A stretch of 64,000 bases of DNA, taken from assembly GCF_003390395.1 (NCBI RefSeq), contig NZ_QUOV01000001.1, positions 434,001 through 498,000 of the forward strand, in the 5' to 3' direction. Origin of the DNA: Thalassotalea euphylliae (GTDB taxonomy: Bacteria > Pseudomonadota > Gammaproteobacteria > Enterobacterales > Alteromonadaceae). The notes beneath the pieces were generated by a model. The model made no database searches. It was given only the letters and a program-made list of their open reading frames with translations, and was not told the DNA's origin. This document shows, in pieces, positions 8,511-20,835 of the stretch (position 1 is the stretch's first letter; the number at the start of each line of letters is the position of its first letter). The translations under genes and the position numbers were made by a program.

Positions 8511-8689
8511 CGAGGTAACAAGCTATTAACAAAAAATTGCGCGGATTTTAACGAATTGCTTAACGCTTAACCAATGATAAATTGTAATTAATCGATATCG
8601 AGTTGGTATTAAAGTTAGTTCGCCTCACCTAAATGCGCGTACGGTATAAGTTATCGCCAGTTATGCTTGCTTTTTTAGCGCCAGCCTTG

Positions 8690-8905
8690 ATAATTGCCGC
8701 TCAAGGTAAGTGCTTGGGAATGGGGTGAAAATCCTCAACTGTACCCGCAACTGTAAACAGAGCAGCCTATTTGCCAAAAAATCGTTCATTTTGAGCGGCT
8801 AGAACTGGTAAACCACTGAGTGTTGAAGTGCTAATGCGATGAGCTAGCGAACAAACTTGGGAAGGTGTAGGTCGAGATGCTGTTAGTCAGGATACCGGTA
8901 TTTAC
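8690..8905 (+). promoter_or_regulatory. Cobalamin riboswitch upstream of the btuD-led operon
   Basis: The conserved core is readable: GGGAATGGGGTGAAAATCC, then the B12 box-like ACCCGCAACTGTAAA at about 8743-8757. A CCACTGAGTG segment near 8813 follows, then GGGAAGGTG with GAGATGCTGTTAGTCAGGATACC at the 3' side. GGTA at the start and TACC at the end can close the element. Cobalamin riboswitches repress uptake genes when B12 is plentiful. The first gene begins about 130 nt downstream, leaving room for an expression platform, but no clear U-tract terminator is seen there. Boundaries are approximate. Confidence 0.9.
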
Positions 8906-9037
8906 CACTTCATATTAACAAGTCGAGCGGGTTACTCGGGCATTGTCATTTCGGTCTAACTGGCCGGGCTTTGCTGTGCAACTGCGCCGACATTTGGCGG
9001 CTATCGTAACGATAGCTTGTTGATACTGGCTAAGGCT

Positions 9038-14169: not shown

Positions 14170-14261
14170 CGTATAGCAAGCACATTGCTGATAAAGAAAT
14201 TTCGCGTTAACGCTAGAGAAATCATCGCTAGAAAAGTTAACGCCGTTTAGCCAACGTTATT

Positions 14262-14395
14262 AGGCTACATAGCAGGGTTATTTAGGGGAAGCTGATGAGA
14301 GTTCAGCGCTGCCCCCGCAACGGTAATATGGCCGCTCTGAATAGTTAAACATTAGCTGTGAGCCATAAAGCCCGATTACCTAAATAGCTTTAATT
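14262..14395 (+). promoter_or_regulatory. Cobalamin riboswitch upstream of btuB
   Basis: The core GGGGAAGCTGATGAGAGTTC is followed by AGCGCTGCCCCCGCAACGGT (the B12-box region, about 14305-14323) and by TGAGCCATAAAGCCCGATTACC at the 3' side. TATTTAGG and ACCTAAATA at the ends can pair as the closing stem (P1). It is shorter than the element at 8690. The btuB ATG is about 65 nt downstream with GAGG close before it, consistent with control of translation. Confidence 0.92.
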
Positions 14396-14461: not shown

Positions 14462-16318
14462 ATGAACATAAAACACTTATCCAAATTAGCAGTGGCTATC
14501 GGCGCTGCAATCACTGTAAATGCCAACGTTTACGCCCAAGCTCCTTCTGTCGCTGATGAAGAAGTTATTACCGTAACTGGCAGTCGCTCGCCGGTCAACA
14601 TCGATACCGCGCTTGCTAGCGTGGTTGTGATCACGCGTGAAGATATTGCTCGAATTCAGCCAAAATCACTTGATGATGTGCTTGATACCATTCCGGGTAT
14701 TGATATCACTAACCAAGGTGGTCGTGGTCAAAATTCATCGCTGTTCTTGCGTGGCACAAACTCAAACCAAACGTTAGTGCTGATTGATGGCATTCGTGTT
14801 AGCTCTGCTAGCTTGGGTTCAACCAACACGCAAATTATTGCACCTGAACTGATTGATCGTATTGAAGTAGTGAAAGGGCCTCGTGCCGCGATTTGGGGTT
14901 CTGATGCCATTGGTGGCGTGATTCAAATTTTCACTCGCCAACTTGAAGGTAGCGAATATATTGCTGGTGTCACAGTGGGTGCTGATGATTATCGCCAGTA
15001 CAAAGCAGGCGCAGGCATCGCACATCCAGACGGCAAGGGCCATACCAGCATTACCTTGAACCGTGAGAAAAGCGATGGCTTTGACGTGTTAAAAACTGCT
15101 GAAGATGACAACGATGGCTACGAATATGACTCGGTCGCGATCAAAGGTCAGCAGCAAGTTAACAGCCAACTAGCAATTGACTGGTTAGCGCGAGCCGATC
15201 AAGGTGATAATGAATATGACAATGCATTTGGTGGTGCCAACGAAGCAGAAACTCGTAACCACGCTTGGTTAGTACGTGGTACTTACAGCCAAATTATTGG
15301 TCATGTACAAAACCACACCACTTTGTCTGTTGGTCAAAATCGTGACTACTCGGAAAATTACCTTGATGGTACCGATGTTTTCACAACGGTATTTGAAACA
15401 CGCCGTGATCAGTTTTCGCTAGTAAACCATGCGCAAGTTTTCCCATTTTTACAGTTCAACTTAGGCTTTGACTACTACAACGAGCAACTCAACAGTACGA
15501 CTGATTTTGCCGAAGACGAGCGCGATGTGACAGCGTTTTACGCTCATAGCTTGTACAGCAAAGATGACTTAACGGTTGAAGCGGCGATTCGCCATGACGA
15601 TGTTGAAAATGTTGACTCAGAAACCACTTACAACGCAGGCATTGGCTATCAAATCAATGAAGATACACGCATTGCGCTAAATGCAGGCAGTGGCTTTAAA
15701 GCGCCAAGCTTTAACGACTTATACTTCCCAGCCAGCCAGTTCTCCTCAGGTAACCCAGATCTGCAATCGGAAACTTCAGATACGATTGAGTTAGTGTTCG
15801 AAACGAACTACGCCAACGTTGATATGGCGTTTAACCTGTATCAAACAGATGTCGATAACCTGATTGTTTGGCTGCCGGATGCAAATTTCTTCTTCCAGCC
15901 TACCAATGTGAATGAAGCAGAAATGTCAGGTATCGAGTTTACCGCGAAGTATCAAGGTTTTGGTGGTAACCACCAGATTAATGCGGGTTATGTTGATGCT
16001 GAAGACAAAGCGACGGGCGAGCAGTTAATTCGCCGTGCTAAAGATCAATTTAGCTACCAGTTCGACACTAATATTGGCGATTTATCGCTTTATGTGGAAT
16101 ACCAATATCGCGGCGAGCGTGAAGACAATGTGTTTGGTGTTGGTCGTGTAAAACTAGACAGCTACCACCTAGTTAACTTAACGGCTAGTTACCCTGTAAC
16201 GCCAAACCTTTCAGTTGAATCGCGTATTACTAACGCGTTCAACGAAAACTACGAAACGGCAGTAAATTACAATACCCAAGATCGCGCTGCGTATATTGGT
16301 ATAAATTACGCAATGTAG
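14462..16318 (+). CDS. btuB: TonB-dependent outer membrane cobalamin receptor
   Basis: 618 residues, close to E. coli BtuB. The signal peptide is residues 1-26 (cleavage after VYA). A TonB box-like EEVITVT follows at about 34-40, then a plug domain with SLDDVLDTIPGIDI, SSLFLRGTNSNQTLVLIDG and RIEVVKGPRAAIWGSDAIGGVI. The 22-strand barrel occupies the rest and ends in an aromatic-containing strand (AAYIGINYAM). The upstream cobalamin riboswitch makes the substrate nearly certain. A strong terminator follows. Confidence 0.95.
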   Translation: MNIKHLSKLAVAIGAAITVNANVYAQAPSVADEEVITVTGSRSPVNIDTALASVVVITREDIARIQPKSLDDVLDTIPGIDITNQGGRGQNSSLFLRGTNSNQTLVLIDGIRVSSASLGSTNTQIIAPELIDRIEVVKGPRAAIWGSDAIGGVIQIFTRQLEGSEYIAGVTVGADDYRQYKAGAGIAHPDGKGHTSITLNREKSDGFDVLKTAEDDNDGYEYDSVAIKGQQQVNSQLAIDWLARADQGDNEYDNAFGGANEAETRNHAWLVRGTYSQIIGHVQNHTTLSVGQNRDYSENYLDGTDVFTTVFETRRDQFSLVNHAQVFPFLQFNLGFDYYNEQLNSTTDFAEDERDVTAFYAHSLYSKDDLTVEAAIRHDDVENVDSETTYNAGIGYQINEDTRIALNAGSGFKAPSFNDLYFPASQFSSGNPDLQSETSDTIELVFETNYANVDMAFNLYQTDVDNLIVWLPDANFFFQPTNVNEAEMSGIEFTAKYQGFGGNHQINAGYVDAEDKATGEQLIRRAKDQFSYQFDTNIGDLSLYVEYQYRGEREDNVFGVGRVKLDSYHLVNLTASYPVTPNLSVESRITNAFNENYETAVNYNTQDRAAYIGINYAM

Positions 16319-16411: not shown

Positions 16412-17437
16412 CTAATAGTTTAACTGACTGGTTTTACCCCAAAACACTTTATACGCAAAAATCGTGTAGCCAATAATCACAGGCAACACTATCACTGCGC
16501 CCCAGAAAATCACTAAGAGTGACGCTGGCGCACTGGCTGCTTCAAAAATCGTCAGTTGGTTTGGCACGATATACGGATAGAAACTGTAGGCTAAGCCACA
16601 AAAACACAAAGTGAAAATAATGATGGCGCAAACAAACGGGTACCAACAGCCAAAATCATCTGCCATCGGCACTTTGCGTAAGTAAAGCTCAACGGTGACA
16701 AACATAAAGCCAAACAGCATCACTAATGGGATCAAGATAAACACTTGCGGAAAGCCTAACCATTTGTCGGCAATAACAGGATCAATGGACAGGTTGGCGA
16801 TACAAACTGCGATGATCCCTAATGCCATAAAGCGGTTCGACCAAATCGCCCATTTTGCCGAACGTTTTTGTAAATCACCTTCGGTTTTCATCACCAACCA
16901 AGCCGCGCCAACATAGCAGTAACCAGCGGTGACACAAATCGCAGAGAGTAGGGCGAACAAGGTTGCCGCAGTACTGGTATCAAACGCGGTTACATAGCGG
17001 CCTAGCATATAACCTTGGCACAGGGTAGCGATAAGTGAGCCGGCTTTAAACGCCAAATCCCATTTATGCTTGTCTTTACTCGGCGCTTTGGTGCGAAAAT
17101 CAAAAGATACACCGCGTAAAATCAAGCCAAATAGCATGAATGCCGTGGGCAAATACAAGGCTTGCAGCACAATCGAATGGGCTTTGGGAAATGCGATCAA
17201 CATTAAGCCAATCGCTAACACTAACCAAGTTTCATTGGCATCCCAAAACGGGCCAATTGAATAGATCATTTTATCGCGCGCGGCTTGATTGGCGGCCGCT
17301 TTGTCGGTGGGTAGCAATACGCCGACGCCTAAGTCGTAGCCATCTAAAATGGCGTACACCAGAAACGACAAGCCCATTAGTGCAATAAACACCATAGGTA
17401 ACCAGTTTACTGTTGAGCTCTCTGTAACAAACTCCAT
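16412..17437 (-). CDS. cioB: Cytochrome bd-type (cyanide-insensitive) quinol oxidase subunit II
   Basis: About 341 residues, the length of CioB rather than the ~379 of E. coli CydB. The family start (FIALMGLSFLVYAILDGYDLGVGVLLP) and an FWDANETWLVLA motif in helix 2 are present. Eight to nine transmembrane helices are expected. ATG 17437 is chosen over the in-frame GTG at 17440, because AAGGAG at 17444-17449 gives 6-nt spacing to it. The gene lies 44 nt after cioA, so the two form an operon. No CydX-like small gene is visible in the 30 nt before the terminator. Confidence 0.9.
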   Translation of the reverse strand: MEFVTESSTVNWLPMVFIALMGLSFLVYAILDGYDLGVGVLLPTDKAAANQAARDKMIYSIGPFWDANETWLVLAIGLMLIAFPKAHSIVLQALYLPTAFMLFGLILRGVSFDFRTKAPSKDKHKWDLAFKAGSLIATLCQGYMLGRYVTAFDTSTAATLFALLSAICVTAGYCYVGAAWLVMKTEGDLQKRSAKWAIWSNRFMALGIIAVCIANLSIDPVIADKWLGFPQVFILIPLVMLFGFMFVTVELYLRKVPMADDFGCWYPFVCAIIIFTLCFCGLAYSFYPYIVPNQLTIFEAASAPASLLVIFWGAVIVLPVIIGYTIFAYKVFWGKTSQLNY

Positions 17438-17481
17438 CACAAACTCCTTTACAACTTTTTCAAACTAAAACGTATGGTGAA

Positions 17482-18930
17482 TTATTGGGCGCTTATTGGC
17501 TCGCTTAGTGTTTCGCTTGGCGATTCGGTCGTGCTATCTGCTTGTTGCATATCTGCCAATTTAGGGTTTGTCGCTTCAAGCTTAACGGCACGATCTGCCA
17601 TCACAAACAAGGTTTTAATATAGGCAATTAATAAGAAGCCATAAACCAGCAAATATAAGGTAAGTGACAAGGCGATATTTTCTGGGGCGATGCCTGTGGC
17701 AGCTTCTTTAGTGGTCAGTACACCTGACACTAGATAAGGTTGGCGGCCAATTTCTGTGACATACCAGCCGGCAAGTGTTGCTAGCCAGCCAGAAAAGGTC
17801 ATGGCCACGGTAGTTTTTAATAGCCATGTTGGGTAGCGTTTTTTATAAACAAACTGATAACTGGCGAGCCAAGCGATGGCTAACATTAATAGCCCGATGC
17901 CAATCATTAAGCGAAAGCTGTAAAACACTGGGGCGACGGGAGGATGTTCACCCTTAAATTCATCTAGGCCACGAATTTCACCGTCAATTTCATGCGTTAG
18001 AATCAGGCTAGCTAAATTTGGTATGGCCACTTCAAAATGATTGGTGCGCGCTGTTTCATCTGGCACGGCAAATAACAGTAGTGGGGCGCCGCGTTCAGTT
18101 TGCCATACCCCTTCCATCGCAGCGACTTTCCCTGGCTGGTGTTCAAAGGTATTCAAGCCATGTAAATCACCGACAAAAGCTTGCAGTGGCATTAATATAG
18201 CAGCCAGTAGCACAGAAAAGTTAAGTGCATATTTTACTGACGACTTTTGATCCCCTTTAACCAAGCGATAAGCGGAAATACCAGCAATCAAAAAGGCTGC
18301 GGTCAGTGCCGAAGCTAGTAGCATATGGGCAAGGCGATAAGGCATGGAAGGGTTAAATACCACTTCATACCAGCTGGTTACGTGGGCTACGCCGTCGATC
18401 ATTTCAAAACCTGCGGGCGTTTGCATCCAAGAGTTGAGTACTAAAATCCAGAAGGCCGATAGGCTAGTGCCAACAGCGACTAGCACAGTTGCTATGGTGT
18501 GTACGCGATTCGAGACTCTGTCCATGCCAAAGAGCATGATCGACAAGAAGGAGGCTTCCAAAAAGAAGGCGGTCATTACTTCATAGCCCAGTAAAGGGCC
18601 TGCAATATTGCCGACTTTTTCCATATAGCCGGGCCAGTTAGTACCAAATTGAAAAGACATAGTAATGCCGCTGACCACGCCAATGGCGAATGTTAGCGCA
18701 AAGATCCGCACCCAAAACCGATATACCCGCAGCCAAGCGTCATCTTGGGTACGGTTGTAGCGCCATTTGAAGAAAACAAGAATCCAACAAAGGGCGATAT
18801 TGATGGTTGGAAATAAGATATGAAAACTGATGTTGGCGGCAAATTGAATTCGCGACAACATTAGGCCAGTTTCAGCAGCCAAATCGATAAAGGCCAGATT
18901 GATATAGGCAAGTGGACTAAAAGCAAACAT
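17482..18930 (-). CDS. cioA: Cytochrome bd-type (cyanide-insensitive) quinol oxidase subunit I
   Basis: About 482 residues. It oxidises quinol and reduces oxygen to water without proton pumping. The haem-ligand His37 is in SFHILFP and a second His in YRLAHMLLAS. The quinol loop has the conserved Lys and Glu in GKVAAMEGVW but is short, as in CioA and unlike E. coli CydA. GWYVTEIGRQP is the conserved C-terminal motif. AAGGAGGT ends 4 nt before ATG 18930; an in-frame GTG at 18936 lies inside that site and is rejected. The N-terminus is about 15 residues longer than usual before SRIQF. Confidence 0.92.
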   Translation of the reverse strand: MFAFSPLAYINLAFIDLAAETGLMLSRIQFAANISFHILFPTINIALCWILVFFKWRYNRTQDDAWLRVYRFWVRIFALTFAIGVVSGITMSFQFGTNWPGYMEKVGNIAGPLLGYEVMTAFFLEASFLSIMLFGMDRVSNRVHTIATVLVAVGTSLSAFWILVLNSWMQTPAGFEMIDGVAHVTSWYEVVFNPSMPYRLAHMLLASALTAAFLIAGISAYRLVKGDQKSSVKYALNFSVLLAAILMPLQAFVGDLHGLNTFEHQPGKVAAMEGVWQTERGAPLLLFAVPDETARTNHFEVAIPNLASLILTHEIDGEIRGLDEFKGEHPPVAPVFYSFRLMIGIGLLMLAIAWLASYQFVYKKRYPTWLLKTTVAMTFSGWLATLAGWYVTEIGRQPYLVSGVLTTKEAATGIAPENIALSLTLYLLVYGFLLIAYIKTLFVMADRAVKLEATNPKLADMQQADSTTESPSETLSEPISAQ

Positions 18931-19399
18931 AAGCACCTCCTTGGGCGCATTAGCTAAACGAATTCTTTTCAGCTTGACCGAGCCAACACCTAATAAGGTA
19001 TGAACATGAAGTATCTAGGCTAGGCGAACACCATGCGAACTACTAAGCGAAGTACCATGCGAACTACTATGCAAATTAGGCATGCCAAAACACATTAGCG
19101 GCACACAGTCCGACTTTGTTCTATCATCAGCCTACGATACAGGCTCACATGCTCTGCTTGGTTGTTCGGCAACGCTGATCGCTACGAATCAGCTTTGCTG
19201 TGATAAAGATCATAACCCTGTCTAAACTGGGAAAAAGGGGGAGATGATCATTATCGGAATTAGTTTGTTTGCGCTTCTTAGCTTGTGTTTTGAGCTTATG
19301 TTTTGAGCCTTTGTTTTAAGCAAATGCTTTTGGTGTTAGCAGCTTGTGCGCTAGTTTTCGATGCTTTATCTACTTAGCAATTGTTTGCCCATTACGCGC
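18931..19399. other. Intergenic region upstream of cioAB
   Basis: No gene seen. It holds a 16-bp direct repeat ACCATGCGAACTACTA at 19030-19045 and 19054-19069 (24-bp period), and an FNR/CRP-like palindrome at 19200-19213. It presumably contains the cioA promoter, but no convincing -35/-10 pair was identified. Confidence 0.5.
19200..19213 (-). promoter_or_regulatory. Possible FNR/CRP-family binding site upstream of cioA
   Basis: GTGATAAAGATCAT has the TGAT-N4-ATCA core of FNR sites, with the outer base of each half differing from TTGAT-N4-ATCAA. It is about 270 bp upstream of cioA. No -10 element is at the expected class II distance, so the role is uncertain. Confidence 0.35.
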
Positions 19400-19951
19400 T
19401 TAGGCTTTTTTATTGGGTAATAGCTTGTCTTTCATATCAATGAGTTTGCCGATACCTTCGCCGAGTTTAAGCAGTGCGGCCAGTTTGTCTGATGACATGC
19501 CCTGCAACTCATTTGACCAAAGGGTGACCATTTCCATCAGATCATGCATTTCCTGCACACGTTTTTGTACATAGCGATCAGCGTCGTTACCGGGCTCTTG
19601 TAGTAGGGCATCACGCATCATTGATAAGGTAGGATCAAGCTCACGTTTACGGCGTTCAACTACCAAAGTACGGGCAATTTCCCAAACATCGCTAGGCGCA
19701 GAGAAATACTCTTTTCTATCGCCGGGAATATGCTGTAACTTGATCAAGTTCCACGATTTAAGCTCTTTTAAACCCATAGAAACATTAGATCGTGAGATTT
19801 GTAGGCACTCACTAATTTGGTCGGCATTGAGTGGTGCTTCGGTCAACACAATCAGGGCATACATTTGACCTAGGGTGCGATTTAACCCCCATTTCGAGCC
19901 CATTTCACCAAAGTGAAGAATTAACGATTGAGTCATTGATGACACTTTCAT
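19400..19951 (-). CDS. GbsR/MarR-type transcriptional regulator
   Basis: 183 residues. A winged helix-turn-helix occupies about residues 10-80: LNRTLGQMYALIVLTEAPLN, then ISECLQISRSNVSMGLKEL as recognition region, and a wing with LQHIPGDRKEYF. This matches the GbsR branch of the MarR superfamily. The C-terminal half is helical and probably dimerises. It is encoded upstream of cioAB on the same strand with about 470 nt between, so it is a candidate local regulator of the oxidase. That link is inference from position. A CGGAG site lies about 10 nt before ATG. Confidence 0.82.
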   Translation of the reverse strand: MKVSSMTQSLILHFGEMGSKWGLNRTLGQMYALIVLTEAPLNADQISECLQISRSNVSMGLKELKSWNLIKLQHIPGDRKEYFSAPSDVWEIARTLVVERRKRELDPTLSMMRDALLQEPGNDADRYVQKRVQEMHDLMEMVTLWSNELQGMSSDKLAALLKLGEGIGKLIDMKDKLLPNKKA

Positions 19952-20110
19952 TAGCCGCTACTCCGCAGTTTTCTGATTAACCATGCAACACTATTTATTG
20001 GAATCCTTTTGCATAACTGGGTGACAGTTCCCCGTATCTATGCTGCCAACATTTTTCAGTGTTTATCAGTTTCTGAATTTTCAGTAATTTCTGAAAATTG
20101 TAAAGGTAAT
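19952..20110. other. Upstream region of the GbsR-like gene
   Basis: AT-rich with no gene seen. It contains TTTCAGTAATTTCTGAAAA (20081-20099), an imperfect inverted repeat that could be a regulator site. Confidence 0.35.
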
Positions 20111-20124
20111 TTGATATAAGTCAA
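20111..20124 (+). promoter_or_regulatory. FNR/ANR-type binding site at a class II promoter
   Basis: TTGATATAAGTCAA matches the FNR consensus TTGAT-N4-ATCAA at 9 of 10 bases (G for A in the second half). Its centre (20117.5) is exactly 29.5 bp before the first base of a TATGAT -10 hexamer at 20147-20152. That places the start of transcription at A20159 with the FNR site at -41.5, the textbook arrangement for FNR activation. Confidence 0.75.
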
Positions 20125-20158
20125 TAAAATGTTTTATCAAAAGGGTTATGATGGACTT

Positions 20159-20236
20159 ATCGGGTGTGCTGGAAGTCTACACCAGCCACCCCGACGGGGC
20201 GTTTTTAGGCTCAGCTTTATGGCTGAGCCTTTTTTT
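20159..20236 (+). ncRNA. Candidate FNR-dependent small RNA (about 78 nt)
   Basis: The predicted transcript starts at A20159 under the FNR-type promoter and ends in a strong intrinsic terminator. It has two stem-loops. The first, at 20162-20191, pairs GGGTG and GCTGG with CCAGC and CACCC around a 9-nt loop (AAGTCTACA) with one bulged T. A linker CGACGGGGCGTTTTT follows. The second is the terminator, AGGCTCAGC with GCTGAGCCT and seven Ts. No gene follows on this strand. A 37-codon frame could begin at 20148/20151, but its start lies within the -10 element, outside the predicted RNA. By analogy with E. coli FnrS it may repress genes under low oxygen; no sequence relation to FnrS is claimed. Confidence 0.65.
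20207..20236 (+). terminator. Intrinsic terminator of the candidate sRNA
   Basis: Stem AGGCTCAGC (20207-20215) with GCTGAGCCT (20222-20230), a 6-nt loop, and T7 ending at 20236. Confidence 0.85.
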
Positions 20237-20352
20237 ATGCCCAAGCCTTTTTTATGCTTAAATCTAGCAGAGTAGGTTGATTAAGCGTATTCTCACTATC
20301 ACGCTAAGCTCATCGATATATACCTTTGCTGGATGCTTTTTTTGTGGGAGTA

Positions 20353-20835
20353 CTAACTTTTATGTTTACTCGTGTCGTGATATTGCCACAGTACATTTAA
20401 TACCTTCCATTGCCCATGTTCGTTCTGGTACAAATGCATGTAGTCAATCCAATCGTCAACGGTGAGCTTGACCGATGCGACACGCTGATCAATATCGAAA
20501 ATTTCAATGTCGACGCGAGGGTTAGCTGAAAACTTATCCCCTTGCTGGTTATACCAACTGGCAAGCTCCACCATAAAATCACGGCTAGTTTCCATGATTT
20601 TCTCTTGGTTATTTTTATCCTGCCAGTAGGTACGCTTTGCCAGTGATTTATCTAATCCTCGCGCCATCAATTCAGGCTTAACTTGGATCTGTGACTCAAT
20701 ATAATCAAGCACGGCGCGTTTAACTGCTTGCTCGTTTGATAGATCTGTGCCGGTTGTTGGATAGGCTATCGCATAGGCACTAAGTAAAGCTAATGCTAGC
20801 AGTGTGCCAGCTAGCCAAGTAAATTGTTGAGCCAT
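20353..20835 (-). CDS. Secreted NTF2-like / lumazine-binding-like protein
   Basis: 160 residues. The N-terminal hydrophobic segment (residues 7-25) is a signal peptide or anchor. The remainder has the features of an NTF2-like fold as in the putative lumazine-binding family: an AVKRAVLDYIES helix near residue 38, a RTYW segment, MVELASWYN, and C-terminal strands VDIEIFDIDQRVASVKLTVDDWIDYMHL and QWKVLNVLW. These proteins often lack known catalysis. It lies 83 nt after the beta-propeller gene on the same strand, suggesting an operon. Function is not known. Confidence 0.7.
   Translation of the reverse strand: MAQQFTWLAGTLLALALLSAYAIAYPTTGTDLSNEQAVKRAVLDYIESQIQVKPELMARGLDKSLAKRTYWQDKNNQEKIMETSRDFMVELASWYNQQGDKFSANPRVDIEIFDIDQRVASVKLTVDDWIDYMHLYQNEHGQWKVLNVLWQYHDTSKHKS

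Follow-up and report, generated by a model that had tools for sequence, protein, structure and literature searches.

The segment 20111..20236 of the window (the whole stretch of 64,000 nucleotides analyzed, G000:C1:434001-498000, from a genome of 4.36 Mb) probably contains a genus-level small RNA gene that is driven by a class II FNR promoter whose activator site also belongs to the divergent promoter of cydE-cydA-cydB. Comparison with related species makes a genuine gene for a non-coding, structured and terminated RNA likely, its transcription being predicted.

Promoter Architecture and Genomic Context

With regard to the promoter, an FNR-type site of sequence TTGATATAAGTCAA (20111..20124, no strand assigned) that deviates from TTGATNNNNATCAA by one mismatch is followed 22 nt downstream by a -10 box, TATGAT (20147..20152, plus strand). 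The center of the site is situated 41.5 bp before the predicted start A20159, and the predicted RNA of about 78 nt (20159..20236, plus strand) ends in a U-run. A sequence-only reading of the window had proposed this series of site, TATGAT, A20159 and terminator, and all of its coordinates were confirmed in the sequence. The RNA is conserved in two further genomes of the genus, G001 and G006, the -10 box reading TATGAT in G000 as well as in G006 and TATCAT in G001. The arrangement characteristic of FNR-activated small RNAs, i.e., a site centered at -41.5 together with a -10 box, is present in all three species, with the starts being predicted. The RNA promoter is absent from the list produced by a two-hexamer promoter scan because no -35 hexamer precedes TATGAT. 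In class II activator promoters the -35 hexamer is often missing.

Taken by itself, the FNR-type motif (at most one mismatch) occurs at chance level, with four instances in the window and 3.4 expected. A composite search for a site (at most one mismatch) combined with TAnnnT at a distance of 21-23 nt and a terminator within 150 nt found a single instance in the window; 150 random sequences generated from its dinucleotide frequencies contained no instance, and site and box without the terminator were encountered 0.38 times per random window.

Downstream of the RNA lies a convergent gene for a lumazine-binding-like protein (20353..20835, minus strand), and the same neighbor is found in G001 and G006. 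In G002, the lumazine-binding-like gene (G002:C2:663148-663531) is found about 3 kb away, beyond the cyd genes, and the locus has therefore been rearranged within the genus. The terminator scan listed no minus-strand terminator between the lumazine-binding-like gene and cydE. A stretch of about 17 nt past the RNA terminator (20237-20253), which ends in a second T-run, is present in G000 and missing from G001. Elsewhere in the window, two cobalamin riboswitches occur on the plus strand (8677-8917, 54.8 bits, and 14245-14389, 35.9 bits), the latter just upstream of a gene at 14462 that was named by eye as TonB-dependent-receptor-like.

Structure of the Predicted RNA

The 78-nt RNA folds with -36.0 kcal/mol compared to -22.0 ± 3.0 kcal/mol for 200 shuffled sequences (z -4.6), and the RNA of G006 folds with -29.8 compared to -22.6 ± 3.0 kcal/mol (z -2.4), with 4 of 200 shuffles being equally good. 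Three parts can be distinguished, all on the plus strand. Stem 1 (20162..20191) is formed by pairing of 20162-20166 with 20187-20191 and of 20168-20172 with 20182-20186 and carries a 9-nt loop, in which GUCUACA (20175-20181) is invariant in the three species; an accessibility calculation predicts this loop to be open. It is followed by the linker CGACGGGGCGUUUUU (20192..20206), a candidate seed that is partly open and does not vary among the three species as far as CGUUU, and by an intrinsic terminator (20207..20236) that consists of a 10-bp stem (20207-20216/20221-20230, six G-C pairs) and a U-run (20231-20236). In G006, this terminator stem comprises 8 bp, the two outermost pairs being missing. 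The sequence CACCCCGACGGGGCGUUU is invariant across the three RNA-bearing species.

The proposal of two stems with an intrinsic terminator was confirmed. The accompanying statement that the linker would stay single-stranded applies to its GGGG and U-run, which are mostly open, but not to GACG and CGUU, which can form a weak 4-bp hairpin. Features of an Hfq-dependent small RNA are present, namely a structured RNA, an intrinsic terminator and a U-rich flank, and an Hfq gene was found in the genome; a terminator stem flanked by U residues is a trait of Hfq-bound RNAs. Since a stable 5' stem whose loop contains 7 invariant nucleotides is combined with a linker rich in G and a terminator stem flanked by U residues, the molecule is most likely a base-pairing RNA that acts on mRNAs. 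A role as a CsrA decoy was considered and rejected, the GGA at the loop edge of G000 being missing in G006.

Distribution and Conservation

A covariance model constructed from the three sequences detected the RNA in three of the seven genomes of the genus (G000, G001, and G006) with scores of 97-112 bits. Among 118 genomes searched with the RNA model, under stricter filters with which weak matches may be lost, none beyond these three exceeded 33 bits; among 73 loci, which mostly contain cydE relatives, scores above 17 bits were confined to the three species. R1 model matches of 17-33 bits elsewhere were judged non-homologous, the seven best sharing mainly the terminator stem; the matches in L059 and L062 overlap tRNA genes, as does one of the four in L067. 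When 60 genomes were searched at the DNA level, 17 (G000 included) gave a match, which extended through the RNA only in G000, G001, and G006; the others matched the upstream block only, except for short terminator/tail matches in G025 and G055. Within the genus, G002 and G004 contain cydE and lack the RNA, and no cydE was detected in G003 and G005 at E 1e-20. A viral origin was rejected after the sequence pattern had not been found in viral contigs. The pattern was also not found in a genome-contig collection, which may leave out near records.

When G000 and G001 are compared, the RNA is identical at 80 of 80 positions (20157-20236) and the fourfold degenerate sites of cydE differ at 27 of 73; identity amounts to 16/22 in the 22-nt promoter spacer, 67/114 in the cydE leader and 98/116 downstream of the terminator. 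For G000 and G006, stem 1 plus linker agree at 41 of 48 positions, the leader at 47 of 117 and the downstream stretch at 49 of 125, with 38 of 65 fourfold sites of cydE changed. The distance between site and RNA is free of indels among the three species.

In G006, 18 of the 20 stem pairs are kept, and two pairs, one per helix, are changed on both sides. Over the three species, pairing is seen in all 58 stem cells that are occupied by letters on both sides (two gap cells set aside), compared to 22-59% of cells when the partners were slid as a control. The covariance alignment of relatives, which had been suggested together with the sequence-only reading, accordingly retains the stems with two double-sided changes; 58 of 500 column shuffles matched the observed covariation, which is not significant for three sequences of which two are identical in the RNA.

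These comparisons also bear on the idea that the locus is simply a terminator or inverted repeat, serving as the end of longer plus-strand transcripts antisense to cydE or as a DNA operator. A strong terminator alone would account for part of the picture, and terminator-like stems past the cydE promoter were seen by eye in some relatives lacking the RNA. The constraint, however, begins near the predicted start and spans stem 1, loop and linker, thus extending far past the terminator, and base changes in the stems preserve pairing, so that we consider this explanation very unlikely.

Least probable of all, and in our opinion hardly credible, is the conserved piece being a short protein-coding gene, i.e., the 37-aa frame 20148-20261. 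It is true that AAGGG precedes an ATG and that the frame is open in all three species. On the other hand, the ATG codons (20148 and 20151) lie upstream of the predicted transcript start. Of codons 1-19, five differ between G000 and G006 and four of these alter the residue (counted by eye), while the third bases of all seven fourfold codons that agree in their first two bases are unchanged (likewise by eye), the opposite of what is seen in cydE. Furthermore, a 2-nt gap in the terminator shifts the frame, and the three species diverge at the C-terminal end. The earlier statement that no convincing protein is encoded is in line with these observations: it is the stems and not a reading frame that are conserved.

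The Neighboring cydE-cydAB Module and the Shared FNR-Type Site

On the minus strand, the RNA is flanked by a gene for a cydE-type GbsR/MarR regulator of 183 aa (19400..19951; MarR_2) that is provided with an operator and located next to cydAB, encoding cytochrome bd subunits I (cydA, 17482..18930, with ATG at 18930 after GGAGG) and II (cydB, 16412..17440). The gap between cydE and cydA (18931-19399) measures about 470 nt, is longer than in G002 or G004 and holds a repeated piece, tagtagttcgcatggt. The opposing cydE promoter (20097..20124, minus strand) combines a -35 hexamer TTGACT (20124-20119), a spacing of 16 nt and a -10 hexamer TACAAT (20102-20097). Its TTGACT falls within the FNR-type site, which is therefore common to both predicted promoters, a fact that the sequence-only reading overlooked.

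In Alishewanella sp. WH16-1, a GbsR-type CydE represses cydAB, with TATTTCAGAAATTTCTGAAAGTTCA as site 1 of the footprint, and a second binding site of CydE is also reported (PMC6096048). The locus studied here likewise features a GbsR/MarR regulator beside cydAB and a footprint-type operator: the CydE-type operator TTTCAGAAATTACTGAAAATTCA (20074..20096, minus strand) matches the degenerate pattern built from the TATTTCAGAAATTTCTGAAAGTTCA footprint with zero mismatches. The two modules share the GbsR-type repressor, cydAB and the operator match at 20074-20096, and differ in the small RNA, which is predicted here and is not mentioned in the accessible portion of the Alishewanella report (PMC6096048).

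An FNR-type site with at most two mismatches is present in 50 of 105 distinct cydE upstream regions (114 loci), compared to 15% in shuffles; 34 of the regions have a site with at most one mismatch (shuffles 1.7%) and seven a perfect one. In this count G006 (L003) scored three mismatches, its 200-bp slice ending before the site that is seen in the alignment. Many of the regions without a site stem from Variovorax and other betaproteobacteria. Relatives lacking the RNA mostly have the site some 90-120 nt upstream of the codons for HFGEMG in cydE, and the leader in G000 and G001 is about 100 nt longer than in these relatives. Among 44 distinct sites from 60 loci (at most two mismatches, such that some two-mismatch sites may be chance matches), 38 exhibit TAnnnT at 7-9 nt on the cydE side. 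On the RNA side, TAnnnT at 21-23 nt accompanies six of the 44, comprising all three of the RNA-bearing and three of the 41 other sites. The FNR-type site has a broader distribution than the RNA and, most simply, would be older, while the plus-strand promoter looks like a local addition.

For the proposed control by FNR this has two consequences. The distance between site and RNA is kept in the three species, in agreement with the original proposal of an FNR-controlled small RNA; at the same time, the site extends to more genomes than the RNA, covers the -35 of cydE and belongs to cydE at least as much, so that control of the RNA by FNR is deduced from the position of the site. It could be argued that the motif serves cydE alone, be it through FNR or as a bare -35 element, and that the RNA is real and transcribed from its own -10 box under other control or constitutively. 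Such an explanation would fit with the retention of the motif in relatives lacking the RNA, its coincidence with TTGAC at -35 and its chance-level count in the window. We regard it as unlikely, given that the 22-nt distance between site and box is unchanged even though the spacer differs at 6 of 22 positions in G001 and in G006 each, that a box at this distance marks the RNA bearers (3/3 vs. 3/41) and that the scan shows no -35 hexamer before TATGAT. Weighing against a class II FNR promoter for the RNA are the -10 box TATCAT of G001, the absence of the RNA from G002 and G004 and the consideration that the motif may be kept just for cydE.

Proposed Mode of Action

An FNR gene is present in the genome (407.8 bits vs. 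a cut-off of 228), and the protein contains the cysteines in the arrangement HCQNCSISELC. A dimer centered at -41.5 occupies the class II activating position, while a dimer across a -35 region usually represses. For the shared-site promoter that we favor, the following sequence of events is inferred: at low oxygen, [4Fe-4S]-FNR would occupy 20111-20124 and, from position -41.5 on the plus strand, recruit RNA polymerase to TATGAT, giving rise to the RNA of about 78 nt that would end at the terminator. On the minus strand, the same dimer would lie over the -35 of cydE and lower transcription of cydE, with which cydAB would presumably be co-transcribed. The RNA, possibly bound by Hfq, would most likely pair with mRNAs via its linker and/or loop.

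A more far-reaching scenario is that one marine lineage has turned an old FNR site of cydE-cydAB into a two-way switch, which represses cydE and fires a lineage-born RNA that silences aerobic genes, possibly including cydA, such that a feed-forward loop results. We put this forward tentatively, as a possibility that is rather doubtful in its entirety.

Search for Targets

Repression of cydA by the RNA would involve pairing of GGGGCG with CGCCC just before the ribosome-binding site. The linker indeed forms its best duplex with cydA among 45 gene starts in the window (-18.8 kcal/mol), and cydA also ranks best for the first 50 nt of the RNA (-40.9 kcal/mol, the lowest of 225 shuffles being -40.8), a pairing that requires stem 1 to be open. 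All three species with the RNA carry CGCCC or CGCCU ahead of AAGGAGGTG, which is not the case for G002, G004, or G018. The linker duplex, on the other hand, falls short of the 1% shuffle level (-20.9 kcal/mol), G006 has a weaker site (CGCCU), and cydA drops to rank 48 (-7.7 kcal/mol) among 337 gene starts once accessibility is taken into account. Altogether, we consider cydA an improbable target.

For the accessibility scan, 337 home-made gene starts were taken from the window and from 20 further stretches of 20 kb (400 kb), which together amount to roughly one tenth of the genome. Rank 1 was assigned to a gene of family PF13500, which we take to be named bioD (L192:18410, minus strand), with -16.9 kcal/mol, the next best being -12.3 kcal/mol, and an uninterrupted 13-bp duplex spanning the start codon. 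This bioD-like gene was not accepted as a convincing target: the complementarity of G000 is kept in G001 and lost in G006.

Complements of the linker were also counted, with reversed sequences as controls. AAYGCCCCG occurs at 21 sites in G000 (control 33) and 47 sites in G006 (control 26), AYGCCCCGTY at 7 sites in G000 (control 18) and 19 in G006 (control 16), and ACGCCCCGTC at two, one and two sites in G000, G001, and G006 (controls 2, 4, and 4), respectively. A clear excess over the reversed control is found only in G006 and only for AAYGCCCCG. Complement loci shared by G000 and G006 according to blastn comprise, besides the RNA locus itself, three that lie within long genes, one antisense to a long gene and one in the terminator following a gene. 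The antisense site coincides with the start of a frame of 86 aa, and this frame was taken for chance. The shared complement at L230:1501 and L269:1254 constitutes, in both genomes, one arm of an ordinary terminator that follows a long gene. The blastn comparison of linker-complement sites between G000 and G006 provided no trusted shared gene start, and no convincing conserved target emerged among the gene starts and complement sites scanned.

Comparison With Known Low-Oxygen Small RNAs

Small RNAs under the control of FNR-type regulators are established in several bacteria. FnrS of Escherichia coli and relatives is activated by FNR and produced without oxygen; AniS of Neisseria is induced by FNR and PhrS of Pseudomonas by ANR, both also being low-oxygen small RNAs. 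The RNA described here resembles FnrS in FNR-type activation at low oxygen, which in our case is predicted. Its likeness to AniS and PhrS is one of description and consists in the predicted control by an FNR-type regulator, with no Rfam match at gathering score at the locus. Identity with FnrS or any other Rfam family was rejected, the covariance-model searches having given no fit: no family reaches its gathering score at the locus, and FnrS is neither among the two gathering matches of the window nor among the 15 Rfam matches up to E = 10 in 20050-20300. The RNA differs from FnrS in the lack of an Rfam match, and the targets of FnrS include sodA, sodB, and marA (PMC8595263).

In the open-licence literature searched, small RNAs controlled by FNR or by anaerobic conditions appear for other bacteria, and none that depends on FNR was found described for the Thalassotalea-like lineage. 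While the locus matches no Rfam family, its kind, the FNR-controlled small RNA, is already known elsewhere. To this kind, a candidate low-oxygen small RNA in the marine Thalassotalea-like lineage is added. Because the site accompanies cydE in many genera and the RNA was found in only three of the species searched, the locus may furthermore illustrate how new small RNA genes could emerge next to an activator site that is already in place.
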